33,864 nt of DNA from Paludibacteraceae bacterium. Its GTDB lineage: Bacteria > Bacteroidota > Bacteroidia > Bacteroidales > Paludibacteraceae. Where the stretch lies: assembly GCA_017508305.1 (NCBI GenBank), contig JAFVZF010000070.1, forward strand, positions 1-33,864, in the 5' to 3' direction. This document shows, in pieces, positions 434 through 17,404 of this stretch; position 1 is the stretch's first letter, and each line of letters opens with the position of its first letter. The translations under genes and the position numbers were made by a program. Under the pieces are notes generated by a model, which did no database searches, was not told the origin of the DNA, and saw nothing but the letters and a program-made list of their open reading frames with translations.

Positions 434-517
434 ATTCGGACTTCGCCCTCATGAAGTTTGGCGGCGCCTCGGCATAGTTCAAACAAGTTTGACTCTGCTC
501 TCGGCTTGCACAAACTT
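434..517 (-). repeat. Structured intergenic element, copy A
   Basis: Read on the minus strand. P1 is AAGTTTG/CAAACTT (511-517 with 454-460). P2 spans 472-498, with GCAGAGT facing ACTATGC across the conserved G-A mismatch and a TCAAAC/GTTTGA apex. The 3' hairpin P3 (434-452) has stem GGGC/GTCC, loop GAA and end GAAT. The P3 stem has a G-T pair on the minus strand, which would be an A-C mismatch on the plus strand. The left flank ends in GA. Confidence 0.75.
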
Positions 518-530
518 TCTGCAATTTAAC

Positions 531-587
531 GTTGCGAAGCAACAAGCAACAAGCGACTAAACGCCTAAACGACTAAACGCCTAAACG
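531..587. repeat. Small GAA-loop hairpin, heptads and period-8 array
   Basis: GTTGC-GAA-GCAAC (531-543) is a perfect 5 bp hairpin with the same GAA loop as the P3 hairpins. It is followed by two GCAACAA heptads and then alternating octads CGACTAAA/CGCCTAAA twice (554-587), ending a few bases before the cysK stop codon. Confidence 0.7.
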
Positions 588-592
588 TCATT

Positions 593-1483
593 TTACAGCA
601 AATTGGTACTAAAATAACGCTCGATGCGGTCTGCCAAAACAGTGGCAACACGTTTTTCTCTGCCGTATTTATTTGCCATTTGAATAGCAGCCCATACATT
701 GGCACCAGAAGAAGTACCACACAACAATCCGTACACTTCTGCCATTTTGCGTGTGGTATAAATGGCATCGGCATCCGAAACTTCTACCACCTCATCAATG
801 AGCGAAGTATCCAATACCTCAGGAACAAAACCATCGCCAATGCCCTGAATTTGATGCAAGCCCGGTTCGTGTCCCAACAACGCCGATACATCTTTTGGCT
901 CTACTGCCACCACTTTTATGTTTGGATTTTTTTCTTTTAAAAATTTACCGATACCCTGTAAAGTACCTCCACTACCCAATCCTGACACAAAAATATCGAT
1001 TTTTCCCTCCATTTGTTCCCACAATTCTACCGCAGTGGTTTGATAGTGAATAGCAGGATTATTGGGATTGACAAATTGTTGCGGAATAAATGCGTTGTCG
1101 CCCAATTCGGCTGCCAGTTCCTCGGCTTTTTTTACCGCTCCATCGAGGCTTAACTCTTTGGGGGTCAGTTCTAACCCTGCACCCAAACAACGAATAATGC
1201 GCTTGCGCTCTTCGCTCATATTTTCGGGCATTACAATAATAACCTTATAGCCTTTTCGCACACCGACCAAAGCCAAACCAATACCGGTATTACCCGATGT
1301 GGGCTCTATAATAGTCATACCGGGTTTGAGTTTTCCCTGTAATTCGGCTTGCTCGATCATGTTTTTAGCAACCCTGTCTTTAATACTGCCACCCGGGTTT
1401 AAGAACTCTGCTTTTCCAAAAATGTTTAAATCATCACTTACCTTTAACAAAGGTGTCTTTCCTATTAAATCGATAATGTTCAT
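593..1483 (-). CDS. cysK: Cysteine synthase (O-acetylserine sulfhydrylase)
   Basis: PLP enzyme of 296 residues that makes L-cysteine from O-acetylserine and sulfide in the cytoplasm. The PLP lysine is K35 in NPGGSIKDR. The substrate loop PTSGNTG covers 61-67, and the phosphate-binding glycine loop SGLGSGGT covers 167-174. The C-terminal ERYFST motif matches the family ERYLST ending. It is slightly shorter than the usual 300-310 residues, with no missing core motif. The start at 1483 gives the usual N-terminus (MNIIDLIGKTPLL). It is bounded on both sides by repeat-filled gaps, so it is probably monocistronic. I saw no clear TAnnTTTG box just upstream. CysK is preferred over cystathionine beta-synthase by length and motifs. 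Confidence 0.95.
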   Translation of the reverse strand: MNIIDLIGKTPLLKVSDDLNIFGKAEFLNPGGSIKDRVAKNMIEQAELQGKLKPGMTIIEPTSGNTGIGLALVGVRKGYKVIIVMPENMSEERKRIIRCLGAGLELTPKELSLDGAVKKAEELAAELGDNAFIPQQFVNPNNPAIHYQTTAVELWEQMEGKIDIFVSGLGSGGTLQGIGKFLKEKNPNIKVVAVEPKDVSALLGHEPGLHQIQGIGDGFVPEVLDTSLIDEVVEVSDADAIYTTRKMAEVYGLLCGTSSGANVWAAIQMANKYGREKRVATVLADRIERYFSTNLL

Positions 1484-1562
1484 ATGTTTGTTTATTCGTT
1501 TATTTGTTGATGCGTTGAGTCGTTTAGTTCGCTGCGCTCACGACTAATCGACGAATCGGTGA
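1484..1562. repeat. Period-8 array with a solo P3 hairpin (minus)
   Basis: Degenerate octads (CGTTTATT, TGTTGATG, CGTTGAGT, CGTTTAGT) lie upstream of cysK. At 1527-1542, read on the minus strand, is CGTGAGC-GCA-GCGAAC, a stand-alone variant of the P3 hairpin. More octads (CGACTAAT, CGACGAAT, CGGTGAA) lead into the next element. The whole 1484-1792 gap is filled by repeats and holds no gene. Confidence 0.65.
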
Positions 1563-1642
1563 AAGTTTGTGCAAGGTGAGTGCAATAAAGTTTACTTTAA
1601 TTGCCGAACCGCAGCCAAACTTCATGAGGGCGTAGCCCGAAT
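1563..1642 (+). repeat. Structured intergenic element, copy B1
   Basis: P1 AAGTTTG (1563-1569) pairs with CAAACTT (1616-1622). P2 spans 1582-1604: GCAATAAAGT pairs with ACTTTAATTGC with one bulged A. P3 is 1623-1642: CATGA, stem GGGC/GCCC, loop GTA, end GAAT. The left flank is GGTGA. It is one of the cleanest copies in the window. Confidence 0.8.
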
Positions 1643-1679
1643 AATCGGTGATTCGTTTTTTTATTACGATTAAACGATT
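1643..1679 (-). repeat. AT-rich recurrent hairpin
   Basis: Minus-strand copy of a motif that on its forward strand reads AATCGTTTAATCG, TAAT, A7, CGAATC, ending in an AACGATT-like arm. Other copies are at 5387-5434, 14754-14790 and 17165-17213, with a decayed one near 406-424. The T7 run next to a weak stem gives a terminator-like look, but it occurs in either orientation to genes, so a terminator role is only inference. Confidence 0.65.
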
Positions 1680-1759
1680 CTGCGGTTCGGCAAATCAATG
1701 CTGGGCACTTCGACAGGCTCAGTGACCGCATTGTTTCTGCACTCACCTTGCAGTGACTT
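1676..1759 (-). repeat. Structured intergenic element, copy B2 (uninterrupted reference for the nested insertion)
   Basis: On the minus strand the P2 arms are 1728-1740 (GCAGAAACAATGC by complement) and 1690-1701, enclosing the TCACTGAGCC-TGTCGAAGTG core. The 105 bp at 1655-1759 are identical, in reverse complement, to 5227-5276 joined to 5357-5411. It is therefore the empty-site version of the host copy at 5227-5390. Its P1 is weak (CTGC/GCAG only). Confidence 0.8.
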
Positions 1760-1792
1760 TCGACTTTCGACTTTTGACTTGCGACTTGCAAC
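1755..1792. repeat. Period-7 array at the 3' end of the nucleoside phosphorylase gene
   Basis: Units of seven bases (GACTTTC, GACTTTC, GACTTTT, GACTTGC, GACTTGC, AACTT) run up to the stop codon at 1793-1795. This is the heptad version of the arrays that are mostly octads elsewhere. Confidence 0.7.
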
Positions 1793-2659
1793 TTATATCC
1801 TTTTCAACACCGTTTGAATCAGCTCTTTCATTTTTTCGTCGTAACTACCAATAAAACGTTTGCCCAAACGATTGGCAATGATAAGACAGACCGTTGTCGC
1901 TTCGTGCCCCATTAAAGCCGACAAACCGGCAATGGCAGAGCCCTCCATTTCAAAATTGGTAATGCGATGACCCTCGTATTCAAACTGCATAATTTTTTCG
2001 TTGAGCAAGGCATCATGCAATGGAATACGTATCGCCCTACCTTGCGGTCCATAAAAACCGGGAGCCGAAATAGTTGTTCCCAACACCATGTCATTGCCGG
2101 CAATTTTTGCAGTTAGCTCTGCCGATGTCTGTAAGCAATAGGGAGCCGCAAAACGAGCGTCATACCCCGTCTTTTCTACAAAAGCTTTCTCAAAAGAAAG
2201 ATCGCAAACCGCATCCCTCCCCGCATAATAATTAAGCAACCCATCAAAACCGATGGCATACTGCGATACCACAAAAGTTCCCTCGGGAGTAAAAGGTTGT
2301 AATCCACCCGATGTTCCTATGCGAACAATAGAAAGTTTTGTTTTATTCTTATTATCTTCGCGAGTTTGCAAATTGATATTTACCAAGGCATCTAATTCGG
2401 TCAAGACAATATCGATATTGTCTGTTCCAATACCTGTCGATACCACCGAAATACGCTTGTCGGCATACCATCCTGTAACAGTTCTAAACTCACGATTTTG
2501 TACCGTATGTTCGATACGGTCAAAATAGGCAGCCACCTTGTCCACTCGGTTTTGATCGCCCACTAAAATAACCTTTTCGGCTATCTGATGAGGCAACAAA
2601 TGCAAGTGAAATACACTGCCATCTGCGTTAATGATAAGTTCGGATTCGGAGTATTTCAT
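1793..2659 (-). CDS. Nucleoside phosphorylase (uridine phosphorylase-like, PNP/UDP family 1)
   Basis: A 288-residue member of the PNP_UDP_1 family, which splits nucleosides with phosphate into base and ribose-1-phosphate for salvage. Family features visible are the early block AEKVILVGDQNRVDKVA (a variant of the VGDPxR phosphate-binding motif), VVSTGIGTDN, IVRIGTSGGLQP (phosphate-binding arginine and glycines), and NFEMEGSAIAGL (ribose-binding Met-Glu pair) near residue 237. Bacteroidota homologues of this length are usually annotated as uridine phosphorylase or simply nucleoside phosphorylase; substrate choice cannot be fixed from motifs, so no symbol is given. A perfect period-8 array begins four bases upstream of the ATG. 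Confidence 0.9.
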   Translation of the reverse strand: MKYSESELIINADGSVFHLHLLPHQIAEKVILVGDQNRVDKVAAYFDRIEHTVQNREFRTVTGWYADKRISVVSTGIGTDNIDIVLTELDALVNINLQTREDNKNKTKLSIVRIGTSGGLQPFTPEGTFVVSQYAIGFDGLLNYYAGRDAVCDLSFEKAFVEKTGYDARFAAPYCLQTSAELTAKIAGNDMVLGTTISAPGFYGPQGRAIRIPLHDALLNEKIMQFEYEGHRITNFEMEGSAIAGLSALMGHEATTVCLIIANRLGKRFIGSYDEKMKELIQTVLKRI

Positions 2660-2662
2660 AAT

Positions 2663-2720
2663 CGGTTATTCGGTTATTCGGTTATTTGGTTATTTGGTTA
2701 TTTGGTTATTTGGTTATTCG
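2663..2720. repeat. Period-8 array (GGTTATT(C/T))
   Basis: Seven consecutive octads: GGTTATTC twice, GGTTATTT four times, GGTTATTC once. They sit immediately upstream of the nucleoside phosphorylase start codon. This is the longest and most regular array in the window. The complement unit GAATAACC contains TAA. Confidence 0.9.
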
Positions 2721-2721
2721 A

Positions 2722-2797
2722 AAGTCAGCGCAAGGTGAATGCAGAAACCATGTTTACATGGGTTATGCTGAACCGAAGCCTAAAATCATGTAATAAG
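2722..2797 (+). repeat. Structured intergenic element, copy C1
   Basis: P2 spans 2741-2768: GCAGAAACCATGT faces ACATGGGTTATGC with G-A and A-G mismatches at the conserved places. The left internal loop CAAGGTGAAT and right loop TGAACCGAAGC match copies 14656-14733 and 17320-17404. The 3' hairpin is missing: AATCATG continues straight into TAATAAG. The left flank is TCGA. Confidence 0.75.
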
Positions 2798-2858
2798 TTG
2801 CTCGCGCTCGGCATAATCAAAGTAAACTTTGCTTCTGCTCTCGCTTACTCGCAAAATT
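2795..2858 (-). repeat. Structured intergenic element, copy C2
   Basis: Read on the minus strand: left arm ATTTTGC, loop GAGTAAGCGAGA, P2 2811-2838 (GCAGAAGCAAAGT facing ACTTTGATTATGC with two G-A mismatches), right loop CGAGCGCGA, and arm GCAACTT. The outer arms do not fully match each other (ATTTTGC against GCAACTT), as if arms of two subtypes were joined. It lies tail to tail with C1. Octads (CACCGACT, CACCAAAT) flank it at 2858-2880. The rest of the 2660-2968 gap holds no gene. Confidence 0.75.
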
Positions 2859-2932
2859 CACCGACTCACCAAATCACCAATAGTTTGATTCAACAAATGT
2901 AAGAATTATTTCGGTATATGCCAATTATTTCG

Positions 2933-2940
2933 TATATTTG
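2933..2940 (+). promoter_or_regulatory. Bacteroidota -7 promoter box for purU
   Basis: TATATTTG matches TAnnTTTG exactly. A partial -33 (TTTC, 2909-2912) lies 20 bases upstream. Transcription would begin near 2947, downstream of an ATG at 2918, which supports the ATG at 2969 as the start of purU. Confidence 0.6.
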
Positions 2941-2968
2941 CGTTTCTAAAAAAGACACACAAAAAGAC

Positions 2969-3838
2969 ATGGAAAAAGCCCAAAAAGATACCGCAGTTCT
3001 ACTTTTGCACTGCCCTGATAAGCAAGGTATCATTGCCGCCGTAACCGAATTTATCAACATCAACAAAGGCAACATCATATACCTTGACCAACACGTAGAC
3101 AAAGCCGAAAAAGTGTTCTTTATGCGTGTAGAATGGGAACTGGAAAATTTTCTTATTCCACGCGACAAAGTAAAAGAATATTTCGATACCCTTTTGGCAA
3201 AAAAATACCAAATGGATTTTGAAATCTATTTCCATGCCCAAAAACCTCGAATGGCATTGTTCGTATCCAAACAAGCACACTGTTTATACGACCTTTTGGC
3301 ACACTACGAAGCAGGCGACTGGAACGTAGAAATTCCACTTATCATTAGCAACCACCCCGACATGGAGCACGTGGCTAAAAAATTTGGCATTTCCTACTAT
3401 TGTTTGCCCATTACCAAAGAAAACAAGGCAGAGCAAGAAGCCAAAGAGATGGAACTATTACGCCAGCACGACATTACCTTTGTGGTATTGGCACGCTACA
3501 TGCAAATCATCACCCCTGCCATGATCGAGGCTTACCCCAATAAGATTATCAACATTCACCACTCTTTCTTGCCTGCTTTTGTGGGTGCGAAACCCTATCA
3601 CGCAGCATTTGAACGTGGCGTAAAAATTATTGGTGCCACCAGCCACTATGTAACCGAAGAGTTAGATGCAGGTCCTATCATCAAACAAGATGTTGCCCGC
3701 ATATCGCACAAAGACAGCATCGAAAACCTTATCCGCAAAGGACAAGATTTAGAAAAAGTGGTACTATCGCGCGCTGTCGAAAAACACATCGAACGAAAAA
3801 TTTTAGTATATAAAAATAAAACCATCGTATTTGGTTAA
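2969..3838 (+). CDS. purU: Formyltetrahydrofolate deformylase
   Basis: Hydrolyses 10-formyl-THF to THF and formate, balancing one-carbon units. It is 289 residues from the ATG at 2969. The N-terminal ACT domain begins at VLLLHCPDKQGI. The formyltransferase domain carries ISNHPDMEHVA, VLARYMQIITP, the Asn-His pair in NIHHSFLPAFVGAKPY, and the Asp in ELDAGPII. An in-frame ATG at 2918 would add 17 residues, but it lies before the -7 box and the extension does not resemble the family. The 3-base gap to hisH suggests one transcript. PurU normally supplies formate to PurT, while histidine synthesis yields AICAR, which needs 10-formyl-THF, so the pairing makes metabolic sense (inference). Confidence 0.93.
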   Translation: MEKAQKDTAVLLLHCPDKQGIIAAVTEFININKGNIIYLDQHVDKAEKVFFMRVEWELENFLIPRDKVKEYFDTLLAKKYQMDFEIYFHAQKPRMALFVSKQAHCLYDLLAHYEAGDWNVEIPLIISNHPDMEHVAKKFGISYYCLPITKENKAEQEAKEMELLRQHDITFVVLARYMQIITPAMIEAYPNKIINIHHSFLPAFVGAKPYHAAFERGVKIIGATSHYVTEELDAGPIIKQDVARISHKDSIENLIRKGQDLEKVVLSRAVEKHIERKILVYKNKTIVFG

Positions 3839-3841
3839 ACC

Positions 3842-4429
3842 ATGCAAGTTGCCATTGTAAAATACAACGCAGGCAATATCCACTCGGTAGTACATGCCAT
3901 TAGAAGATTGGGCATCGAGCCCATTTTAACCGACGACCCCACCCTTTTACAACAAGCCGACAAGGTCATCTTTCCGGGGGTTGGCGAGGCGGCCACTACC
4001 ATGCAATATTTGCAAAAAACGGGGCTTGATAAAGTGATTAAAGGCTTAACACAACCCGTTTTGGGCATTTGCTTGGGCATGCAATTGCTGTGCAAGCACT
4101 CGGAAGAAGGGCATGTAGACGCCTTGGGCATTTTTGATATACCCGTTAAAAAGTTTAGTTGGGTAAAAGGCATTAAAATTCCACACATGGGATGGAACCA
4201 AATAGGTCAGCTAAAATCGCCCCTATTTGCCAAAAATCAAGAAAACGATTACGTATACTTTGTGCACAGCTACTATGTCCCTGTATGCGAGCATACCGTT
4301 GCCACAACCCAGTACAATGGAGCATTTAGCGCAGCGCTCAACAAAAACAACTTTTACGCCACCCAATTTCACCCCGAAAAAAGTGGCGATGTAGGCAGTC
4401 TTATTTTAGAACAGTTTTTGCAGCTATGA
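3842..4429 (+). CDS. hisH: Imidazole glycerol phosphate synthase, glutaminase subunit
   Basis: Class I glutamine amidotransferase of 195 residues that releases ammonia for HisF. The triad is complete: C77 in GICLGMQL, and H177 and E179 in QFHPEKS. The oxyanion-hole motif is PGVGEA (45-50). The length is normal (about 195-200). It starts 3 bases after purU, and its stop overlaps the hisA start by 4 bases (ATGA at 4426-4429), so it is translationally coupled to hisA. Its partner hisF is separated from it by hisA and the repeat block at 5158-5550. Confidence 0.96.
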
Positions 4430-5157
4430 TTCAACTCATTCCCGCTATCGACATTATTGACGGCAAATGTGTTCGTCTATCGCAAGGCGATTACAACCGC
4501 CAAAAAACATACAACGAAAATCCGTTAGAAGTAGCAAAATCTTTTGAAGATCATGGCATCACTCGCCTGCACTTAGTCGATTTAGACGGAGCCAAAGCAC
4601 AACATATTGTCAATCACAAGGTATTGGAAACCATTGCAACCCAAACCCACCTTACCATCGATTTTGGGGGTGGACTTAAAACCGACGATGATTTGCGCAT
4701 TGCCTTTGAAAGTGGTGCATCGATGATTACAGGCGGTAGCATTGCAGTAAAGAGCCCCCATACCTTTTTGTCGTGGTTAAACCAATATGGTAGCAGTAAA
4801 ATTATTTTGGGTGCCGATGCCAAAGACAAAAAAATTGCCGTAACAGGTTGGTTAGAAAATACCGATTGCCAGCTACTCGACTTCTTGGCAGACTACATTC
4901 ACAAAGGCGTCAGCCAAGTTATTTGTACCGACATTGCCAAAGACGGCATGTTGCAAGGGCCATCCACCAACTTGTACCAAGAAATTTTGGCTGCCCACCC
5001 TGCCCTATGGCTCATTGCAAGTGGCGGAGTTAGCAACATGAACGACATTATGCAGTTGGATGCTGCCGGTGTTCCTGCCGTTATTTTTGGCAAAGCCATT
5101 TACGAGGGCAACATCACCCTCAAAGAAATAGAACAGTCGATTGTCGCTAATCGATAG
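4426..5157 (+). CDS. hisA: ProFAR isomerase (HisA)
   Basis: TIM-barrel enzyme of 243 residues that isomerises ProFAR to PRFAR in histidine synthesis. The N-terminal catalytic Asp is D9 in [20 protein letters not shown]. The second half has [13 protein letters not shown] and the phosphate-binding ASGGVS and [10 protein letters not shown] motifs. It overlaps hisH by 4 bases. The last codons and stop run directly into repeats (GTCGCTAA, TCGATAG), so the array appears to touch the 3' end of the coding region. HisA is told from HisF by its N-terminal block and size. Confidence 0.96.
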
Positions 5158-5198
5158 TCGTTTAGACGTTTAGACGTTTAGGCGTTTAGGCGATTAGT
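5158..5198. repeat. Period-8 array after hisA
   Basis: Octads CGTTTAGA twice, CGTTTAGG twice, then CGATTAGT. Each unit contains TAG on the hisA strand, and because 8 is not a multiple of 3 the stops fall in all three frames. Confidence 0.8.
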
Positions 5199-5217
5199 CA
5201 TGAGGGCAAAGCCCGAA
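5199..5217 (+). repeat. Solo P3 hairpin
   Basis: CATGA, stem GGGC/GCCC, loop AAA, end GAAT. It has the same frame as the 3' hairpin of the full elements but no P1/P2 body upstream; octads precede it directly. Confidence 0.75.
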
Positions 5218-5226
5218 TAAAGTCGC

Positions 5227-5390
5227 AAGTCACTGCAAGGTGAGTGCAGAAACAATGCGGTCACTGAGCCTGTCGAATTTTGCGAGTAAGTGAGAGCAAT
5301 GATAAGCTTGCTTAATCATTGCCGAGCGGGAGCAAAATCATGAGCGAAGCGAATAGAGTGCCCAGCATTGATTTGCCGAACCGCAGAATC
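5227..5390 (+). repeat. Structured intergenic element, copy D, interrupted by another copy
   Basis: The left part 5227-5276 and right part 5357-5390 together form a full element (left P2 arm GCAGAAACAATGC, right arm GCATTGATTTGC). The copy is split inside the TGTCGA/AGTG core by the 80 bp element at 5277-5356. The two parts joined are identical to the reverse complement of 1655-1759. Confidence 0.85.
5277..5356 (+). mobile_element. Nested 80 bp structured element inserted in copy D
   Basis: P1 ATTTTGC (5277-5283) pairs with GCAAAAT (5332-5338). P2 spans 5296-5322 (GCAATGAT/ATCATTGC plus AAGC/GCTT). P3 is 5339-5354 (CATGA-GC-GAA-GC-GAAT). Insertion is after TGTCGA; the boundary is ambiguous by one A and no clear target duplication is visible. 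A near copy stands at 14414-14495. It has no coding capacity, so any enzyme would act in trans. Confidence 0.8.
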
Positions 5391-5434
5391 GTTTAATCGT
5401 AATAAAAAAACTTTCAACGATTTAACGATTAAAC
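5387..5434 (+). repeat. AT-rich recurrent hairpin
   Basis: Forward copy with AATCGTTTAATCG, TAAT, A7, then CTTTCAACGATTTAACGATT. The first part is shared exactly with the complement of 1655-1679; the CTTT segment replaces the CGAA of other copies. Confidence 0.65.
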
Positions 5435-5438
5435 AGTA

Positions 5439-5471
5439 ATTCGGGCCCTTCGACAAGCTCAGGGACCGAAT
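5439..5471 (+). repeat. TTCGACAAGCTCA-core hairpin
   Basis: ATTCGG/CCGAAT outer arms enclose CCCT/AGGG and the core. The core read on the minus strand is GAGCTTGTCGA, which leaves tandem G-A mismatches inside the stem. An identical 33-mer stands at 17263-17295. Confidence 0.75.
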
Positions 5472-5472
5472 A

Positions 5473-5532
5473 GGATCGCCTAAACGACTCAACGAATCAA
5501 CGATTCAACGATTAGTCATGAGCGAAGCGAAT
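5473..5532 (+). repeat. Period-8 array ending in a solo P3 hairpin that overlaps an upstream ATG of hisF
   Basis: Octads CGCCTAAA, CGACTCAA, CGAATCAA, CGATTCAA and CGATTAGT lead into CATGAGC-GAA-GCGAAT (5517-5532). The ATG within CATGA is in frame with hisF but belongs to the repeat. Confidence 0.75.
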
Positions 5533-5550
5533 ATTAGTCAACAAAAAAAT

Positions 5551-6306
5551 ATGTTAGCAAAAAGAATTATTCCCTGTTTGGACGTAAAAGACGGCAAAGT
5601 CGTTAAAGGCGTCAATTTTGTAAACTTTCGCGATGCAGGCGACCCCGTAGAGTTGGGCGCATTTTATAGCAAAGCCGGTGCAGACGAGTTGGTATTTTTG
5701 GACATAACCGCCTCGCACGAGGGCCGCAAAACTTTTGTAGAAATGGTAGAAAAAGTAGCTGCCAACGTAAACATTCCCTTTACTGTAGGTGGTGGCATCA
5801 ACGAGCTAAGCGATGTAGAACGCCTACTCAAGGCAGGTGCCGACAAAGTTTCTATCAACTCGGCAGCCCTTCGCAACCCCGATTTGATTAACCAAATAGC
5901 TGCCAACTTTGGTTCGCAAGTATGCGTTGTTGCCATCGATGCCAAGCAAGAAGAAAACGGCGAGTGGGTTTGCTACCTAAACGGTGGCCGCATCCCTACC
6001 GAACGCAAATTGGTAGAATGGGCAGTAGAAGCACAAGAACGAGGTGCCGGCGAAATTTTATTTACCAGCATGAGCCACGATGGTGTAAAAACCGGCTATC
6101 CAAACGAAGCCTTAGCCGCCCTTGCTGACGCACTACGCATTCCTGTCATTGCATCCGGAGGCGCAGGCACCATGGAACACTTTAAAGACGCCTTTGAAAA
6201 AGGCAAAGCCGATGCCGCGTTAGCAGCCAGCGTATTCCACTTTGGCGAAATTAAAATCGACGAACTAAAAGCCTATTTAAAAACACAAAACATACCGGTA
6301 AGATGA
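5551..6306 (+). CDS. hisF: Imidazole glycerol phosphate synthase, cyclase subunit
   Basis: TIM-barrel synthase of 251 residues that closes the imidazole ring from PRFAR and HisH-derived ammonia, giving IGP and AICAR. It begins [20 protein letters not shown], with catalytic D11; the second catalytic Asp lies in VVAIDAKQE. Phosphate loops are VGGGI and ASGGAG. An in-frame ATG at 5518 would add 11 residues, but those bases are a P3 repeat, so 5551 is preferred; translation from 5518 cannot be excluded. It overlaps hisIE by 4 bases (ATGA, 6303-6306). No TAnnTTTG box is visible between hisA and hisF, so expression may need read-through of the 393 bp repeat block. Confidence 0.95.
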
Positions 6307-6899: not shown

Positions 6900-6906
6900 C
6901 AAGTGT

Positions 6907-11045: not shown

Positions 11046-11222
11046 AGTAAATTTAATATAATGAGTAATTAATTGTTTAGTCGTTTAGTCGTTAAGGCGT
11101 TTAGTCGATTCTATATTTCTCCTTTATTCCCTTCGGTCATCAACACGTCTCCTTTATCAACTCTCCTTTAAATAAAGCCGATTCACCGATTCACCGATTC
11201 ACCGATTTCTTTTAAAAGAGTG
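11046..11222. repeat. ppdK leader region with two period-8 arrays
   Basis: Octads GTCGTTTA, GTCGTTAA, GGCGTTTA (about 11075-11107) and CGATTCAC three times (11179-11207), separated by pyrimidine-rich CTCCTTT-type words. If transcription starts at the box at 11223-11230, both arrays lie in the ppdK 5' leader. No element with P1/P2/P3 is present. Confidence 0.7.
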
Positions 11223-11230
11223 CAAATTTA
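11223..11230 (-). promoter_or_regulatory. -7 promoter box for ppdK
   Basis: TAAATTTG on the minus strand matches TAnnTTTG. A TTTG at 11245-11248 is 14 bases upstream, somewhat short for a -33. It lies just downstream of the yggS terminator. Confidence 0.6.
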
Positions 11231-11246
11231 ACAAATTCCTTATACA

Positions 11247-11290
11247 AAAAAAAACGTTTGCCGCTATTTTTTAGAGCAAACGTTTTTTTT
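11247..11290 (-). terminator. Intrinsic terminator of the recF-dciA-yggS operon (symmetric)
   Basis: Arms 11247-11261 and 11276-11290 (CGTTTGC/GCAAACG plus A8/T8) enclose a 14-base loop. It lies 31 bases after the yggS stop. Confidence 0.9.
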
Positions 11291-11320
11291 CTCATTTTTA
11301 CAGAAATCAACCTCTTATTC

Positions 11321-11998: not shown

Positions 11999-12000
11999 AA

Positions 12001-12291
12001 TCAGTGAAATATGATGTTATCAATAACGTGACTACCCAATTGTTGGTTAATGCGTTGCAACAAATTTTCGCGCTGCATCATCATTTCGTTGCGCAACGTG
12101 GCAGAATGAAAAAACACATACATTATTCTGTTCTTTACAAAGACAGTTTTGGTACGACGCAACACTTTATCGTCTACCACCTTGTTCCAGCACCCCACCG
12201 CCATGGCCTCTTTGATTTTATCCTGTAAGCCGTATCGATCAAAATACGCCTGCATAAACGATCCTATTTTCTGCGGCTGACTGCGTTTCAT
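12001..12291 (-). CDS. DUF721/DciA-like protein
   Basis: Small protein of 96 residues from the ATG at 12291 (MKRSQPQKIGSFMQAYFDRYGL). DUF721 is the domain of DciA, which loads replicative helicase in bacteria lacking DnaC/DnaI. The core here has the W in VGCWNKVVDDKVLRRTKTVFVKNRIMYVFFHSATLRNEM and a typical ending (LLQRINQQLGSHVIDNIIF). The 12291 start overlaps the recF stop as ATGA (12288-12291); an upstream ATG at 12327 would overlap recF by 40 bases and is less likely. The recF-DUF721 pairing is common in Bacteroidota. The helicase-loading role in this phylum is inferred from the family. Confidence 0.85.
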   Translation of the reverse strand: MKRSQPQKIGSFMQAYFDRYGLQDKIKEAMAVGCWNKVVDDKVLRRTKTVFVKNRIMYVFFHSATLRNEMMMQRENLLQRINQQLGSHVIDNIIFH

Positions 12292-13376
12292 GCTATAATG
12301 GAACCTTGATGAATGGTAAAGAGACATTTTTCGCCTTCTACTTGCTGCAAGAGCGTATCCAAATGTTCTCGGTTGGTATCTGTAATAAAAATTTGCCCAA
12401 AACGATCGGTTGCTACCAACTTTACAATGCGTTCTACGCGAGTAGCATCCAACTTGTCAAAAATATCGTCCAATAGTAAAATGGGATATTTTCCACAAGC
12501 CTTTTTCATAAATTCAAATTGCGCCAATTTAAGTGCCACCAAAAAACTTTTGGTTTGCCCTTGCGAAGCAATGCGTTTAAGCGGATAATCGCCCAAATAA
12601 AAGGCCAACTCGTCTTTATGAATACCAACGGTGGTATACCCTACAGCCTCGTCACGATACCTGCTTTGCTCCAAAAAAGCCAACAAATCGCCCTCCTGCA
12701 AGTGCGACTCATAGCGAATGGACACAAGCTCGTTATCGCCTGCAATGGCAACATAATACGTAGCAAAAATAGGAATAAACTGCTCCAAAAACGCCGCTCT
12801 TTTGGGGTAAATATACGCTGCTTTTTCTGCCATAATGCGCTCGCAAACACCCAATAACTCTGCATCGGCTACATGCGCACGCAGCAAAGTATTGCGCTGC
12901 AACAATGCCTTATTGTACGCCAAAAGTTGATGCAAATATTCTTTATCGTATTGGGATATAATACCGTCTATTAGTTTTCGGCGTTCGCTACTTCCTTCGA
13001 TAATCAATTCCAAATCGTTAGGCGATACAATGACCAAAGGAACCAACCCTATGTGATCTGCCAAACGTTCGTACTCTTTTTTGTTGCGTTTGATTACTTT
13101 TTTTTGCCCTTTTTGCAACCCCACCGACACCCTTTCCTGCCTATCGTGGCTGCAAAACTGAGCATCGAGCAACAAAAACGACTCGCCGTGCCTAATTACC
13201 TGAGTATCTGCGTGACAAGTGCGACTTTTGCCAAACGCCAAATAGTATATAGCATCCAACAGGTTGGTTTTACCCATCCCGTTATTACCTATAAAGCAAT
13301 TTACGCCATTGCAAAATTGCACCTCAACTTGCCGGAGGTTTTTATAGTTGGTAGCCGATAAGGTTTGTAAAAACAT
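12288..13376 (-). CDS. recF: DNA replication and repair protein RecF
   Basis: SMC-like ATPase of 362 residues that helps load RecA at gapped DNA. It begins MFLQTLSATNYKNLRQVEVQF; Walker A is GNNGMGKT (30-37). The signature region is RIASQGQTKSFLVALKLAQ, and Walker B with the D-loop is ILLLDDIFDKLDATR. The length is normal. It is first in a three-gene operon with the DUF721 and yggS genes. The region just upstream is a period-8 array, and no clear -7 box was found. Confidence 0.96.
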   Translation of the reverse strand: MFLQTLSATNYKNLRQVEVQFCNGVNCFIGNNGMGKTNLLDAIYYLAFGKSRTCHADTQVIRHGESFLLLDAQFCSHDRQERVSVGLQKGQKKVIKRNKKEYERLADHIGLVPLVIVSPNDLELIIEGSSERRKLIDGIISQYDKEYLHQLLAYNKALLQRNTLLRAHVADAELLGVCERIMAEKAAYIYPKRAAFLEQFIPIFATYYVAIAGDNELVSIRYESHLQEGDLLAFLEQSRYRDEAVGYTTVGIHKDELAFYLGDYPLKRIASQGQTKSFLVALKLAQFEFMKKACGKYPILLLDDIFDKLDATRVERIVKLVATDRFGQIFITDTNREHLDTLLQQVEGEKCLFTIHQGSIIA

Positions 13377-13382
13377 TATTAT

Positions 13383-13510
13383 GGTTATTCGGTTATTCGG
13401 TGAGTCGGTGAGTCGGTTAGTCTAAATCGGTCACTGAGCTTGTCGAAGTGCCCGATTTAGTCGGTGAGTCGGTGAGTCATCAAATAACCAAATCACCAAA
13501 TCACCGACGT
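13383..13510. repeat. Period-8 arrays around a core hairpin
   Basis: Octads GGTTATTC, GGTGAGTC and GGTTAGTC lie on the left (13383-13422), and GGTGAGTC twice, CAAATAAC and CAAATCAC twice on the right (13460-13508). They flank the hairpin at 13423-13459. There is no gene in the 13377-13542 gap. Confidence 0.8.
13423..13459 (+). repeat. CACTGAGCTTGTCGAAGTG-core hairpin
   Basis: Outer arms TAAATCGG (13423-13430) and CCGATTTA (13452-13459) are perfect. Inside, CACT/AGTG, tandem G-A mismatches, one G-C pair and a CTTGT loop form a second helix. In the copies at 5439 and 17263 the arms are ATTCGG/CCGAAT and CCCT/AGGG, so both helices covary around the same core. Confidence 0.8.
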
Positions 13511-13513
13511 ACT

Positions 13514-13533
13514 GATGAGTACGAAGTACGAAT
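13514..13533 (+). repeat. Solo P3 hairpin with GTAC stem
   Basis: GATGA, stem GTAC/GTAC, loop GAA, end GAAT. The stem is unlike that of other P3 copies but fully paired, which is good evidence that pairing rather than sequence is kept. Confidence 0.7.
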
Positions 13534-13542
13534 AATCACCAA

Positions 13543-14301
13543 TTATTTAATGGTAATAAAAGGCAATTGGCTGCCACTAAAATATTGAGGCATTTTGCCA
13601 TCCCACTTGTTAATCGCCATTTCTTGCAATACCATGGGCGACAAAGAGGCTTGTTTTACCTTTTGTGCTTCGGCTTCCAATTTCATACGTTCCAACGTAA
13701 ATTTGGCGGTAAGTGCTCCTTGTTCGGCAATCTTTTTATCCTCGATAGCCTTGTTAAAATCGTCACTAAAGTCGTGATTAGTAATAAGTAAACTTTTTAC
13801 CACTATACCACTTCCTGCCACTTGTTCGGCAAATGCAGTATTGATGCGGCTCGAAATTTCGGCACGTTTTTCCACAAATGTTTCGATGGGATATTCGGCA
13901 ATAACCGCATTGATTTTTTCTGACAAGGTAGGTCTGATAAGTGTATTTTCTATTTCCATACCATAGGTTTGAAACACCTTGCCCACTTCAGAAGGAGACA
14001 AAGCATACACCAAACTTACCTGCACCGTAATGGTCTGTATATCGCTCGAAGACACCTCGGTCTTAACCGTCAAATTTTGGTCGCGCACCGACATAATTTT
14101 TACATCATCCATTACAGGAACTTTAAAGTTAAGCCCCTCACCCACAACGTTAATAAGCTTACCAAAACGAAGTACAACTCCTCTTTCGCCTGTATCAATG
14201 GTATAAAAACAAGCCATACAAGCCACTACAATAACAGCCAACAAAATGCCTAAAAACATTCCTTTAAACGAAATCTGATTTACTGGTTTTGCATTGTTCA
14301 T
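13543..14301 (-). CDS. Prohibitin-like SPFH/Band 7 membrane protein
   Basis: A 252-residue single-pass membrane protein. The membrane helix is at about 14-35 (GMFLGILLAVIVVACMACFYTI). It is followed by an SPFH domain (TGERGVVLRFGKLINVVGEGLNFKVPVMDDVKIMSVRDQ) and a charged coiled-coil segment (DFNKAIEDKKIAEQGALTAKFTLERMKLEAEAQKVKQ). Family members form ring-like membrane scaffolds that bind proteases such as FtsH. The short domain with a YALSPSEVGKVFQTYG block fits prohibitin-type rather than HflK/HflC or flotillin proteins. It is monocistronic, with its own -7 box. Confidence 0.88.
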   Translation of the reverse strand: MNNAKPVNQISFKGMFLGILLAVIVVACMACFYTIDTGERGVVLRFGKLINVVGEGLNFKVPVMDDVKIMSVRDQNLTVKTEVSSSDIQTITVQVSLVYALSPSEVGKVFQTYGMEIENTLIRPTLSEKINAVIAEYPIETFVEKRAEISSRINTAFAEQVAGSGIVVKSLLITNHDFSDDFNKAIEDKKIAEQGALTAKFTLERMKLEAEAQKVKQASLSPMVLQEMAINKWDGKMPQYFSGSQLPFITIK

Positions 14302-14324
14302 AATCGTATTCTTTAAAATTTATA

Positions 14325-14332
14325 CAAAGATA
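14325..14332 (-). promoter_or_regulatory. -7 promoter box for the prohibitin-like gene
   Basis: TATCTTTG on the minus strand matches TAnnTTTG exactly and lies 23 bases upstream of the ATG. No good -33 TTTG is seen. Confidence 0.6.
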
Positions 14333-14342
14333 CTATTTTTTT

Positions 14343-14413
14343 TGGTGAATCGACTAATCGACTAATCGGCGAATCGTTTTTTTTTGTGAATCGACTAATC
14401 GACTAATCGGTGA
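14343..14413. repeat. Duplicated period-8 array
   Basis: Two near-identical stretches, each GTGAATCGACTAATCGACTA-type octads followed by ATCGG(C/T)GAAT, are separated by T9. The second leads directly into the element at 14414. Confidence 0.75.
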
Positions 14414-14495
14414 ATTTTGCGAGTAAGTGAGAGCAATGATAAGCTTGCTTAATCATTGCCGAACGCGAGCAAAATCATGAAGGCGAAGCCTGAAT
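14414..14495 (+). repeat. Structured intergenic element, copy G1
   Basis: P1 ATTTTGC (14414-14420) pairs with GCAAAAT (14469-14475). P2 matches the insert at 5277-5356. P3 is 14476-14495 with stem AGGC/GCCT and loop GAA. Against the 5277 copy it has changed right-loop bases (CGAACGCGA against CGAGCGGGA) and a longer P3 stem. Left flank GGTGA. Confidence 0.8.
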
Positions 14496-14496
14496 A

Positions 14497-14549
14497 AAGT
14501 TTGTGCGAGGCGAATGCAGAGACAAAGTTTACTTTGGCTATGCTGACTG
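14497..14549 (+). repeat. Truncated structured element
   Basis: Left arm AAGTTTG, loop TGCGAGGCGAAT, and P2 14516-14543 (GCAGAGACAAAGT facing ACTTTGGCTATGC). The expected right loop and CAAACTT arm are missing; the next element begins instead. Confidence 0.65.
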
Positions 14550-14650
14550 TTGCGATTAAGCGAGAGCAGAAGCAATGCGGTCACTGAGCCTGTCGAAGTG
14601 CCCAGCATTGATTATGCCGAGCGGGAGCAACTTGAGCGAAGCTAATCGAT
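14549..14650 (+). repeat. Structured intergenic element, copy G2 with the TGTCGA core in its apex
   Basis: P1 is GTTGC (14549-14553)/GCAAC (14627-14631). The P2 arms are 14566-14578 and 14605-14617, enclosing the CACTGAGCC-TGTCGAAGTG core. The 3' hairpin is decayed (GAGC-GAA-GCTAAT). A closely similar copy is at 17062-17164. Confidence 0.75.
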
Positions 14651-14655
14651 GCCAA

Positions 14656-14733
14656 ACTTATTACATGATTTTAGGCTTCGGTTCAGCACAACCCATGTAA
14701 ACATGGTTTCTGCATTCACCTTGCGCTAAACTT
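14656..14733 (-). repeat. Structured intergenic element, copy G3
   Basis: Minus-strand copy close to 2722-2797. Outer pairing TTTAG/CTAAA; P2 14686-14713 is GCAGAAACCATGT facing ACATGGGTTGTGC. As in C1, the 3' hairpin is missing after AATCATG. It abuts a P3 hairpin at 14734. Confidence 0.75.
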
Positions 14734-14790
14734 CATGAGGGCGTAGCCCGAATAATCGTTGATTCGTTTTTTTATTACGATTAAACGATT
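14734..14790 (+). repeat. P3 hairpin joined to AT-rich hairpin
   Basis: P3 is CATGA, GGGC-GTA-GCCC, GAAT (14734-14753), then the AT-rich hairpin in reverse (14754-14790). The stretch 14728-14799 differs from 1616-1688 at about three positions, so this compound unit recurs. Nothing else is coded in the 14302-14881 gap apart from the flanking promoters. Confidence 0.7.
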
Positions 14791-14846
14791 CCGCGGTTCA
14801 TCGATTTTTTCTCCTTTCTCCTTTCTCATTTCTCCCCTAAATTTAT

Positions 14847-14854
14847 TACCTTTG
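14847..14854 (+). promoter_or_regulatory. -7 promoter box for the esterase gene
   Basis: TACCTTTG matches TAnnTTTG and lies 27 bases before the ATG. A CTCCTTT heptad tract (about 14808-14838) precedes it. Confidence 0.65.
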
Positions 14855-14881
14855 CACCTTATTATATAAATACATACTACC

Positions 14882-15808
14882 ATGAAAAAATATACCCTAT
14901 TTGCTGTTATGGCAATTCTGTTAGCCTGCGTCGGTTGTACCCACAACAAGCCCATGCCTAACTTGCCCAAAGCCCCATTAGAAGTAGTTAGTGGCACCGT
15001 GTATCGCACCCAATTGTACAGTGCCAACTTTGGCGATAGCCTAACAGTCGATATTTGGACACCCGATAATTACAACACCCAACAAACCTATCCTGTACTA
15101 TACATGCACGATGGACAAAACCTGTTTGACCCCAACAGCACATGGAACAAACAAGCATGGAACATAGACGATGCCATTGCACAATTGGTAGCCGATGGCA
15201 AAATAGAAGCTCCTATTGTAGTGGGTGTACACAGCATTGGCGAAAGCCGCATTGACGATTTGATGCCCGAAAAAGTAGCACCCCTTATTAAAGATTCCAC
15301 CATTTTTGCCTACATGGATGCCATGTGTCAAGGCAAATACAGAGGCGACGAATACGTTGATTTCTTGGCGAATACTGTCAAACCATTTGTTGACAGCGTG
15401 TTTAGCACCAAACCAGAAATGGAACACACCGCAGTAATGGGTTCGAGTATGGGCGGATTAATGTCGTTTTATGCCCTTTGCGAAGCACCTCACGTGTTTA
15501 GCAAAGCCGGTTGTTTTTCTACCCACATTGGCAACAACCCCGAAAATGGTGCTTTGGCATACGCTTTAATGGATTATTTGGAGCAAAGCCTACCCCAAGA
15601 CGAAACGCACTACATTTATTTGGACTGTGGCGATCAGAACATCGATGCTCCCTATGCTCCATTCTTTCCTGCTTTGGTAGCAAAAATTGATAGCTTAGGC
15701 TATACAAATCGCATGTTACATGGCTTTTACCCCGGTGCCGGCCATACCGAAACCGACTGGGCAGCCCGCGTGCACGTAGCGTTGGAATACTTTTTTTCAC
15801 GTCGCTAG
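14882..15808 (+). CDS. Lipoprotein esterase, alpha/beta-hydrolase of the putative-esterase (Fes/EstD) family
   Basis: 308 residues. The N-terminal lipoprotein signal ends in LLAC with C16 as the lipidation site, so the protein is probably anchored facing the periplasm or cell surface. The hydrolase begins YRTQLYSANFGDSLTVDIWTP. HDGQNLFD (76-83) is the family's oxyanion-region motif. The nucleophile is S189 in GSSMGG, the His is H288 in GAGHTE, and an acid is likely at D248 or D251 in LDCGDQN. Relatives split carbohydrate esters (feruloyl, acetyl) or siderophore esters; the substrate cannot be told here. The next gene follows after 71 bases of repeats and may be co-transcribed. The stop TAG lies within a CGCTAGT repeat unit. 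Confidence 0.88.
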   Translation: MKKYTLFAVMAILLACVGCTHNKPMPNLPKAPLEVVSGTVYRTQLYSANFGDSLTVDIWTPDNYNTQQTYPVLYMHDGQNLFDPNSTWNKQAWNIDDAIAQLVADGKIEAPIVVGVHSIGESRIDDLMPEKVAPLIKDSTIFAYMDAMCQGKYRGDEYVDFLANTVKPFVDSVFSTKPEMEHTAVMGSSMGGLMSFYALCEAPHVFSKAGCFSTHIGNNPENGALAYALMDYLEQSLPQDETHYIYLDCGDQNIDAPYAPFFPALVAKIDSLGYTNRMLHGFYPGAGHTETDWAARVHVALEYFFSRR

Positions 15809-15876
15809 TCGCCTGTCGCTAGTCGCTAGTCGCTTGTCGACTCACCGAATCACCGCATCACCGCATCACCGATAAT
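15805..15876. repeat. Period-7 then period-8 array between the esterase and peptidase genes
   Basis: Heptads CGCTAGT, CGCCTGT, CGCTAGT, CGCTAGT, CGCTTGT begin at the stop codon itself, then octads TCACCGAA, TCACCGCA, TCACCGCA, TCACCGAT run to just before the next ATG. Confidence 0.85.
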
Positions 15877-15879
15877 AAC

Positions 15880-17034
15880 ATGGAATTTCAAATTCGACAT
15901 AACAAAATAAGACAAGCCATGGCACAAGTGGGTGCCGATGGTTGCTTGCTGACCACTCCTGTTAATGTTTACTATACCTGCGGACACATCATTGTAGGTT
16001 ACGTATATCTTCCGCTACAAGGCGATCCCACTTTTTTGGTGCGTCGTCCAAATAATTTGCAAGGAGAGCACTTTCATTTGGTGCGCAAATTAGAAGATTT
16101 ACCTACCCTATTGGCTGCTAAAGGACAATCGTTACCCACCCAACTAATGGTAGAGGGCGATGATATTTCGTATGCCGAGTGGATGCGCATCGAAAAGTGC
16201 ACAGGCGCCAAATTGATAAATGGTTCTAAAATTATCCGCTATGTTAAAAGCGTCAAAACAGCATTCGAGCAAGAACAATTGCGCATATCGGGCAAAAAAC
16301 AAACCGAGGTATTAGCCAAAGTACCTGCGGCCTATCGCATCGGCATGACCGACCACGAATTTAGCGTAGAAGTAGAACGCATTTTCCGTTTGGGCGGTTG
16401 CTTGGGTTTGTTCCGCATTTACGGCAGTACCATGGAATCGCACATGGGTTCTGTATTAACAGGCGATAACGCAGCCACCCCCTCGCCCTACGATTTTGCC
16501 TTGGGCGGCGCAGGCATGCACGACTCCTTGCCATTAGGTCCAAACGGAACCATCATCAAAGAAGGACAAACCGTTATGGTTGATATCAACGGTAATTTTA
16601 CCGGCTATATAGCCGACCAAAGTCGCACCTATAGTGTAGGCAAATTGCCCCAAATGGCATACGACGCACACGCCGTATCGATTGAGATACAAGAAGCCAT
16701 TGCCAAGGCTGGCACTCCGGGTGCTACTTGCGAAGAGCTATGGCAACTATCGCTCGACATCGTAAAAAAACACCATTTAGAAGCCTATTACATGGGCATT
16801 GCTCAACAAGCCAAGTTTGTAGGACATGGTATTGGATTGGAAATCAACGAATTGCCTGTACTATGCGGACGCAATCCGCAACCATTAGAAGTAGGTAATA
16901 CCATTGCTTTAGAGCCTAAATTTGTATTACCGGGCATTGGTGCTGTAGGCACAGAAAACAGCTATATAGTACAAGAAGGAGGTATGGAGAAAATAACCTT
17001 TGCCCCAGAAGAGATTATCGACCTTACGGAATAG
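15880..17034 (+). CDS. M24-family metallopeptidase (Xaa-Pro aminopeptidase type)
   Basis: Cytoplasmic 384-residue pita-bread peptidase. The N-terminal creatinase-like domain (1-125) includes MAQVGADGCLLTTPVNVYYTCG. All five dimetal ligands are visible: D235 (MVDINGNF), D246 (IADQSRTY), H316 (GHGIGLEINELP), E345 (LEPKF) and E359 (GTENSYIV). It is expected to remove an N-terminal residue before proline or to cleave Xaa-Pro dipeptides; the two activities cannot be separated by motif, so no symbol is given. It is slightly shorter than classical PepP (about 440). It has no signal peptide. The stop TAG starts a TTGATAG heptad run. Confidence 0.9.
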   Translation: MEFQIRHNKIRQAMAQVGADGCLLTTPVNVYYTCGHIIVGYVYLPLQGDPTFLVRRPNNLQGEHFHLVRKLEDLPTLLAAKGQSLPTQLMVEGDDISYAEWMRIEKCTGAKLINGSKIIRYVKSVKTAFEQEQLRISGKKQTEVLAKVPAAYRIGMTDHEFSVEVERIFRLGGCLGLFRIYGSTMESHMGSVLTGDNAATPSPYDFALGGAGMHDSLPLGPNGTIIKEGQTVMVDINGNFTGYIADQSRTYSVGKLPQMAYDAHAVSIEIQEAIAKAGTPGATCEELWQLSLDIVKKHHLEAYYMGIAQQAKFVGHGIGLEINELPVLCGRNPQPLEVGNTIALEPKFVLPGIGAVGTENSYIVQEGGMEKITFAPEEIIDLTE

Positions 17035-17053
17035 TTGATAGTTGATAGTTGAG
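17031..17053. repeat. Period-7 array at the peptidase stop codon
   Basis: ATAG-TTGATAG-TTGATAG-TTGAG, with the stop codon as part of the first unit. Confidence 0.75.
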
Positions 17054-17061
17054 AAAGGAGA

Positions 17062-17164
17062 AAGTTGCGAGTAAGCGAGAGCAGAAGCAATGCGGTCACT
17101 GAGCCTGTCGAAGTGCCCAGCATTGATTATGCCGAGCGTGAGCAACTTCATGAGCGCAGCGAAT
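17062..17164 (+). repeat. Structured intergenic element, copy I1 (full length)
   Basis: P1 AAGTTGC (17062-17068) pairs with GCAACTT (17142-17148). The P2 arms 17081-17093 and 17120-17132 pair with two G-A mismatches and enclose the CACTGAGCC-TGTCGAAGTG core. P3 is 17149-17164 with stem GC/GC and loop GCA or CAG depending on register, end GAAT. This is the most complete long copy. Confidence 0.82.
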
Positions 17165-17213
17165 AATCGTTTAATCGTAATAAAAAAACGAATCAACGAT
17201 TTAACGATTAAAC
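17165..17213 (+). repeat. AT-rich recurrent hairpin
   Basis: AATCGTTTAATCG, TAAT, A7, CGAATCAACGATT, TAACGATTAAAC. It directly follows the GAAT end of the preceding element, as at 1643 and 14754. Confidence 0.7.
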
Positions 17214-17262
17214 ATGAGCGAAGCGAACTAAACGCCTAAACGAATCACCGAATCACCAACAA
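17213..17262 (+). repeat. Solo P3 hairpin followed by period-8 array
   Basis: CATGAGC-GAA-GCGAAC (17213-17228), then CTAAACGC, CTAAACGA, ATCACCGA, ATCACCAA. Confidence 0.65.
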
Positions 17263-17295
17263 ATTCGGGCCCTTCGACAAGCTCAGGGACCGAAT
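17263..17295 (+). repeat. TTCGACAAGCTCA-core hairpin
   Basis: The 33 bases are identical to 5439-5471: arms ATTCGG/CCGAAT and CCCT/AGGG around the core. Confidence 0.75.
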
Positions 17296-17296
17296 A

Positions 17297-17319
17297 GAAT
17301 CGACTAAACGACTAAACGA
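17297..17319. repeat. Period-8 array
   Basis: ATCGACTA, AACGACTA, AACGA, with the next element beginning right after CGA. Confidence 0.7.
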
Positions 17320-17404
17320 ATTTCAGTGCAAGGTGAGCGCAGAAGCAAACTTGTTTGGTTATGCCAAGGCGCAGCCTGAAATCATGAAAAGCGAAGCTTT
17401 GAAT
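17320..17404 (+). repeat. Structured intergenic element, copy I2
   Basis: P1 ATTTCAG (17320-17326) pairs with CTGAAAT (17376-17382). P2 spans 17339-17364 (GCAGAAGCAAAC with GTTTGGTTATGC). P3 is 17383-17404 with a 5 bp stem AAAGC/GCTTT, loop GAA and end GAAT. It is embedded in CGACTAAA octads on both sides. The rest of the 17035-17433 gap is repeats; no gene or clear promoter box was seen before leuS. Confidence 0.82.

Follow-up and report, generated by a model that had tools for sequence, protein, structure and literature searches.

A family of folded, mobile DNA elements in Paludibacteraceae and in phages

The gaps between genes in a stretch of 33,864 nucleotides (nt) from a Paludibacteraceae bacterium (assembly GCA_017508305.1, contig JAFVZF010000070.1, positions 1 to 33,864; hereafter the window) hold copies of an elaborately folded repeat, 13 of which had been listed in a first-pass annotation. 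We report here that these copies belong to a family that is mobile, inserting cleanly at NA|A (in the host chiefly GA|A or TA|A), as follows from empty and filled sites, from nested copies and from phage proteins that either have or lack a segment of exactly 25 residues. They are probably mobile DNA elements that insert without a fixed target duplication and are moved in trans as folded single strands, a mechanism that we infer.

Architecture, covariation and spread

Read 5' to 3' as a structural descriptor, the element consists of P1 (7 bp), an internal loop with a left side of the GAGTAA or TGCAA type, P1c (GC/GC, GT/AC or CC/GG), tandem GA/GA pairs and the P2/P3 hairpin, followed by a mini-hairpin, P4. 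Between the tandem GA/GA and the tip lie a G-C or A-T pair, one bulged base, GCA/TGC and a hairpin with a TT-type tip; to the right of P1 come CATGA, P4 (stem-GNA-stem) and GAATA, the right end of the element, and intact elements measure 75 to about 90 nt. This plan was derived from 39 stretches of the own genome fetched around pattern matches, plus a reading of the window and a repeat listing. The three helices first annotated, P1, P2 and P3, hold, but the unit is larger, with a second hairpin and defined insertion borders that had not been described, and the conserved G-A mismatch is actually a tandem GA/GA, present in 133 of 134 distinct elements.

These distinct elements come from 228 fetched from the own genome and its relatives (eight overlapping loci removed), of which 158 could be parsed. 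Type A (GAGTAAG) accounts for 105 of the 228, type C (TGCAAGG) for 75, type D for 17 and other forms for 31. The 78 of 158 elements with that P4 end pair CATGA with GAATA (62), CACGA with GAGTA (12) or CATGA with GAGTA (4), and never CACGA with GAATA; this is a T-A/C-G swap across another tandem GA. Adjoining elements with exchanged right arms (A-left/D-right and C-left/A-right) at L020:131-258 suggest recombination between elements.

The helices vary and yet stay paired, as first proposed. With P1 read at fixed offsets, not chosen by pairing, its seven positions form standard pairs in 110, 105, 123, 128, 126, 129 and 126 of the 134 distinct elements. In an alignment of 26 cores, pairing holds for 94.6% of cells and both sides change in 10 of 14 pairs, while pairing falls to 26-39% when partners are slid as a control. 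In a shuffle test, which serves as support only because relatedness can inflate its result, four of five measures exceeded the shuffles and further pair types did not. A tree-based null was obtained with our own G-test with average product correction, in place of R-scape, and an IQ-TREE simulation of 60 structure-free alignments on the element tree (129 rows, five with P2 over 26 nt having been dropped; columns at least 4 apart; P4 left out). The six best column pairs were all helix pairs (E 0 to 0.017): P1-3, P1-5, P1-6, one P2 pair and two distal-hairpin pairs. The next two, also helix pairs, reached E 0.42 and 0.45 and the P1c pairs 1.1 and 1.4, so that the predicted covariation stands for these three P1 pairs, one P2 pair and two distal pairs, and the remaining P1 pairs, P1c and other pairs are individually not significant. 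The copies are thus supported as a single family whose folded strand is under selection.

The family matches no named one, as had been supposed. Rfam 15 gave no match in the window at gathering score, and a relaxed threshold over 14380-17430 gave two chance-level matches only (E 1.5 and 3.4). The exact string CTTCGACAAGCTCAG is absent from the open-licence PMC literature, where no description of the element family appears among the matches listed, and the 13 papers there that contain one of three core strings of the element are unrelated, judged by title. A hammerhead-like core (CTGATGA...GAA in solo hairpins) was considered and rejected, since variants TTGACAA and TTGATGA, seen by eye, break it.

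A covariance model built from the copies (R1), the check suggested at first annotation, recovers copies in the window, the own genome and the genus. All 13 places first listed are present: R1 scores 12 of them at 43.5-67.1 bits, and the 13th (5227-5390) is split by an insertion. At least 144 copies were counted in the own genome, from no more than 149 scored candidates, which makes this number a floor. Within the genus, 14 of 16 genomes carry 2 to 144 copies (635 in total) and two carry none. In a sample of the family, scored with stricter filters and 24 candidates per genome, 105 of 250 genomes and 26 of 33 genera have at least one copy. Loci of 30 low-copy genomes were fetched (28 with one match, two with two), and a comparison of their flanks by eye, for those whose retrieved sequence included the element, showed differences in all but the pairs L263/L271 and L265/L281. 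Two genomes of one genus of the family (g37) have single-copy elements beside tRNA-like sequence, as judged by eye (L264, L276). A set of 80 named LeuS loci (662 kb) gave one weak R1 match only. Most elements (210 of 228) lie outside predicted open reading frames (ORFs), in agreement with their annotation as fillers of gaps between genes, but in phage contigs they also stand in frame inside genes.

Insertion sites in hosts and phages

Seventy-seven host elements with an intact right end define 65 distinct sites, the other 81 of the 158 parsed elements being without that end or having fewer than six P1 pairs. The base preceding P1 is A at 64 of the 65 sites (last two bases GA 44, TA 14, AA 5, GT 1, CA 1) and the base after the insertion is A at 61 and G at 4, giving the joints GA|A (40), TA|A (14), AA|A (5), GA|G (4), GT|A (1) and CA|A (1). 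A fixed-length target duplication was not found: beyond the first A, which is shared, agreement is seen at 32 of 54 sites for base 2 and at 24 of 54 for base 3.

Elements are nested after the TGCYGA of a host element at L022, L027, L035 and L110 and at 14547-14644 of the window. Locus L118, which aligns to window 13668-21448, has no R1 match; two syntenic gaps are without the copies and short where the window has elements. Its pepP-leuS gap reads CAAATCGACTAAACGAATATACAACAATATGG, and the element at 17320..17405 is missing at the syntenic place; taken alone, this pair fits a loss in L118 as well as a gain in the window. One orthologous locus bears one copy, two tandem copies or two nested copies in three species (L098, L109 and L027, respectively). 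Another genus member (G006, L080) has three head-to-tail copies with P1 AATATAG/CTATATT and the unit border TA|A.

A strict core pattern retrieved 39 stretches on 37 IMG/VR contigs, in 38 of which R1 found 64 copies, some on near-identical contigs; L362 is a chance match. Phage P1 is mostly AGGCTGC/GCAGGCT (6/7 pairs), and it is followed by P4, as it is in the host. The neighbours include genes for a portal protein, a prohead protease and a major head protein. Of the 64 copies, 44 share sequence with predicted ORFs of 60 amino acids (aa) or more, 22 on the coding strand and 22 on the opposite strand, where the ORFs are perhaps partly spurious. Nineteen of the 22 coding-strand copies share one reading frame, a bias that has no one-third baseline since one frame often contains a stop. 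In phage proteins the insert makes a difference of exactly 25 residues (202/227 aa and 184/209 aa), as aligned for 11 chosen of 102 homologues of the L349 protein with the two L349 copies, and for 8 of 389 homologues of the L370 protein with that protein itself, one insert-free protein there having 183 aa and not 184. A further insert of 24 residues follows the element's A-E, the place where host elements nest, and protein P0154 has two elements in tandem. At the DNA level, L383 and L384 are empty and L382, L349 and L385 filled, with the joint GA|A or CA|A. By eye, the element stands upstream of a conserved GNGLSRTAM, in the same frame, in L348, L355 and L370.

The P1 5' arm also tends to resemble its target. 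Bases 2-5 match the DNA directly downstream 127 times in the host against 94.5 by permutation (n = 65, p = 5e-5), 82 against 63.4 with one site per P1/flank type (n = 46, p = 0.001), 63 against 50.9 at non-periodic flanks (n = 29, p = 0.010) and, in phages, 49 against 40.2 (n = 30, hand-chosen from 47, p = 0.010; p = 0.015 minus one tandem case). The upstream flank, taken as a control, shows no effect (p = 0.62). L349 (ACCCTTC at ACCCTTC) and L366 (AGCCTGC at AGCCCGC) are striking single cases, and many sites have no match. The resemblance is a hint of guided targeting, from a permutation that ignores the shared ancestry of sites.

Elements and other repeats of the window

Predicted ORFs cover about 0.90 of the window, and its gaps are crowded with repeats (Table 1). 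The DNA minimum-energy fold of the element at 1563..1643 contains P1, P2 and P4. The element at 1676..1759 is an uninterrupted relative of that at 5227..5390, whose two sides are 98% and 100% complementary to stretches in 1655-1767; in comparison with this relative, the intruding element at 5277..5355 went in at CTGTCGA|AGTGCCC, the right junction having gained a single G (5356).

Table 1. Elements and solo mini-hairpins in the window.
Position	Strand	Feature	Basis
433..517	-	Type C; P1 AAGTTTG/CAAACTT, P1c GCC/GGC, P2/P3, CATGA, P4 GGGC-GAA-GTCC, GAATA	R1 463-510, 58.0 bits
1563..1643	+	Type C; P4 GGGC-GTA-GCCC; flanked both sides by ATCGGTGA	R1 53.6 bits
1676..1759	-	Type C; CACTGAGCCTGTCGAAGTG palindrome in P2 tip; weak P1	R1 43.5 bits; inverted repeats
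2722..2795	+	Y element (P2 CCATGTTTACATGG); right end CATGTAATA; abuts foot of opposite-strand 2795..2857	R1 60.9 bits; sequence
2795..2857	-	Type A; Y element at its 3' foot	R1 67.1 bits
5197..5219	+	Solo mini-hairpin GTCATGA-GGGC-AAA-GCCC-GAATA	Sequence
5227..5390	+	Type C; P2 split by another element	Sequence
5277..5355	+	Type A; P1 ATTTTGC/GCAAAAT; P4 GCGAAGC	R1 54.8 bits
13508..13534	+	Solo mini-hairpin CGTACTGATGA-GTAC-GAA-GTAC-GAATA at CACCGA|ATCACC	Sequence
14414..14496	+	Type A; P4 AGGC-GAA-GCCT	R1 55.2 bits
14497..14659	+	Type C; right internal loop broken after TGCTGA	R1 14504-14552, 46.2 bits; sequence
14547..14644	+	Nested element CTGTTGC...GCAACTT-GAGCGAAGCTA inside 14497..14659	R1 51.2 bits
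14659..14732	-	Y element; right end CATGTAATA	R1 57.6 bits
17062..17165	+	Type A; palindrome in P2 tip; P4 GC-GCA-GC	R1 50.3 bits
17320..17405	+	Type C before leuS; P1 ATTTCAG/CTGAAAT; P4 AAAGC-GAA-GCTTT	R1 44.5 bits

Tandem units of 7-8 nt (AACGACTA, ATCGGTGA, AAGTCGA, ATTAGGA, ACCGAATA) fill gaps at 360-400, 1500-1560, 2660-2720, 11060-11210, 13375-13510, 14340-14410 and 17220-17320, and the [GT]A|A joint of the elements recurs at the unit borders; in viral contig L364 an element lies within ACATTGA arrays. The gaps also contain scattered copies of another palindrome, around CTTCGACA(A/G)GCTCAG, which occurs in P2 tips as well (1700-1725, 5440-5470, 13427-13456, 14580-14605, 17095-17120, 17266-17295); by eye, elements are inserted within it at L023, L100 and L101, and one such string is absent from the open-licence PMC literature. 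An ORF of 739 aa (24409-26628) has internal 27-nt and 300-nt repeats and no NCBIfam match. The nearest named relative of the window LeuS is that of a Paludibacteraceae metagenome-assembled genome, RGIG873, from cattle rectum (95% identity).

The folded strand and its possible mover

In the own loci the P4 loop is GNA in 82 of 159 hairpins before GA[AG]TA, and none of the 12 commonest loops among 64 hairpins of a mononucleotide shuffle control is GNA. Viral loci gave 21 GNA and 11 GNNA loops among 47 (in 13 of the 47, P1 has under five pairs); GACA, a non-GNRA loop, occurs in well-paired copies, GATA in weak ones only. With at least two G-C pairs, such loops give DNA mini-hairpins of exceptional stability (melting temperature 78 C for GCGAAGC), according to passages of PMC4686876. 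Because P4 has these loops, folded single-stranded DNA (ssDNA) is the likely substrate. Sheared tandem GA pairs fit both DNA and RNA.

The first-pass annotation had left the choice between folded RNA and ssDNA open; selection on a folded strand is upheld, and the evidence appears to favour the ssDNA of a mobile element. That the copies are cis-acting or small RNAs spread by duplication would fit the conserved fold, the orientation in co-directional gaps (79 sense, 32 antisense) and the RNA folds of the four window copies examined, two of which are strong (z -2.8 and -3.4, against -1.2 and -0.3). We nevertheless hold this to be very unlikely, as copies occur in both orientations, in convergent and divergent gaps too, and in frame in unrelated phage genes, as they insert cleanly with GNA/GNNA loops and no Rfam match, and as the flanks of single copies differ except in two pairs. 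The sense bias would fit a lagging-strand template if genes are mostly on the leading strand.

Several points weigh against mobile ssDNA moved in trans. That sense bias fits RNA too. DNA and RNA differ little by folding energy (P1 forms in 113 versus 104 of 116; P4 in 48 of 74, with DNA and RNA energies alike). Of four copies, three have a complementary strand that folds nearly as well, and one has a top strand that folds as DNA no better than shuffles (z -0.66). At some single sites 4-7 nt of the P1 5' arm recur in the downstream flank, which could be taken for a short duplication whose border has shifted. Moreover, an additional G stands at 5356 and not every right end is GAATA, so the border is not a strict one. 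The copies are related, hence the site counts are not independent. The Y1 transposase domain PF01797 is absent from the own genome (84% complete), and it is found in 11 of 31 family genomes with at least nine listed copies, against 135 of 219 others.

This last point bears on one of the closest known systems, the repetitive extragenic palindromes (REPs) of REP-associated tyrosine transposases (RAYT; TnpA-REP, Y1 HUH), perhaps of Bacteroidetes subclass 2.6, with the gene lost or elsewhere. The elements are small, mostly intergenic, structured and of high copy number, without a fixed target duplication, and the portion of PMC6006769 consulted describes subclass 2.6 genes flanked by atypical GT[AG]G-free structures with copies elsewhere in the genome. 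PF01797 is nonetheless absent from 14 of 16 genus genomes. At E<0.01, R1 found elements in none of 30 PF01797 loci, and a further set gave one in 20 (L059, 30 bits, about 0.8 kb from the gene). A subclass 2.6 profile, built from 20 relatives of the L066 protein (gene motifs NH[LIV]H, WQ, YIH[QN]NP), was negative in all 16 genus genomes and positive in 61 of the 250 sampled from the family, and R1 found no element beside 30 such genes (E<0.01). The Y1 flanks read by eye (L054, L059, L061, L066, L328, L336, L339) carry other repeats or none recognised. We therefore regard the elements as REPs of this kind only as a minor possibility. As far as an excerpt of PMC3733652 goes, REPs and REPINs share with our elements small imperfect hairpins, high copy number, mostly intergenic clusters and the lack of a fixed duplication, but measure 20-40 nt, where our elements have about 80 nt, two hairpins and tandem GA pairs. 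Our elements also differ in having no GT[AG]G or CGTC foot (A before P1 at 64/65 sites; P4 foot CATGA or CACGA in 78) and no linked Y1 gene, and in standing in frame in phage genes.

Other candidates for a mover fared no better. As a resident partner gene, only one ORF family (at least 70 aa) recurs in three own-genome loci (L017, L033, L035), and it overlaps elements. A reverse transcriptase (PF00078, 5 of 16 genus genomes) and a Y2 transposase (PF04986, 1 of 16) bear no visible relation to copy number. No phage-borne mover is apparent among the 25 commonest of the 48 Pfam and 127 PHROGs families listed (133 of 160 neighbour ORFs scanned), which include portal, prohead protease, methylases, two reverse transcriptases and one OrfB_IS605; a mover could still lie among the rarer families. 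The mover may have been lost after amplification, may reside on a plasmid or phage, or may be of another enzyme class.

Template switching at short A-ended homologies during replication would need no dedicated enzyme and could have made the 7-8-nt arrays likewise. Array units, solo mini-hairpins and elements have common [GT]A|A joints, 31 of 65 joined flanks are periodic, P1 resembles the target, and tandem copies occur; but element-exact insertion took place at unlinked sites in many genomes and phages, which slippage alone is not known to produce, and we consider this explanation quite improbable. Integron attC sites, moved by a tyrosine recombinase on folded ssDNA, are laid out analogously, with a box stem, an unpaired spacer, a second box with an extrahelical base and a variable tip, and are likewise reported to be recognised by the shape of the folded strand rather than by sequence, a functional analogy. 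Here, however, copies are single or clustered in gaps and not arranged as gene cassettes, and the junction is at the P1 foot, whereas attC recombines inside the G|TT core box; that the elements are attC-like sites is thus hardly credible. Miniature inverted-repeat elements of DDE transposons differ by their fixed-length target duplication, not found here. Rickettsia palindromic elements, structured repeats inserted in frame in genes, are unlike ours in sequence and fold, and ours are also found in phages.

IS200/IS605 elements, with their non-autonomous derivatives, resemble ours in the two hairpins near the ends, the one-strand polarity and the insertion, with no fixed duplication, on the 3' side of a short target. 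Here, in contrast, the border is at the hairpin foot at NA|A, there is no tnpA, and the stems vary with pairing kept. As to guide-target pairing, our P1 5' arm resembles the downstream target on average, and many sites show no match. The movement of folded single strands that we favour would work as it does in IS200/IS605 and REP systems: the written strand would be exposed as ssDNA and then fold, cuts would fall 3' of the A at the P1 foot and 3' of the A after P4, and the cut strand would be joined into its target at A|A. The strand-transfer enzyme, most likely HUH-like, would be supplied from elsewhere and would read the shape, the tandem G-A pairs and the foot rather than the stem sequence; the stems would therefore be free to drift as pairs. 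We do not file the family under IS200 or REP, because defining features of these were tested for and not found.

One might speculate further, although we think it unlikely, that this is guided single-strand mobile DNA common to Bacteroidales and phages, with a mover of an enzyme class not yet described. The P1 3' arm would close the element on itself and, after excision, pair with the target, so that a new stem would mean a new target; if this were true, helix covariation would record guide-target pairing.

Small bacterial repeats are mostly simple palindromes, many of them tied to a known transposase, whereas the element described here has an elaborate fold kept by compensating changes. To this the family adds clean joints, natural pairs of empty and filled sites, and in-frame copies of 25 residues in phage genes. 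The element is thus a ready substrate for finding a single-strand DNA mover, and could serve to test whether shape and a self-paired guide choose targets.

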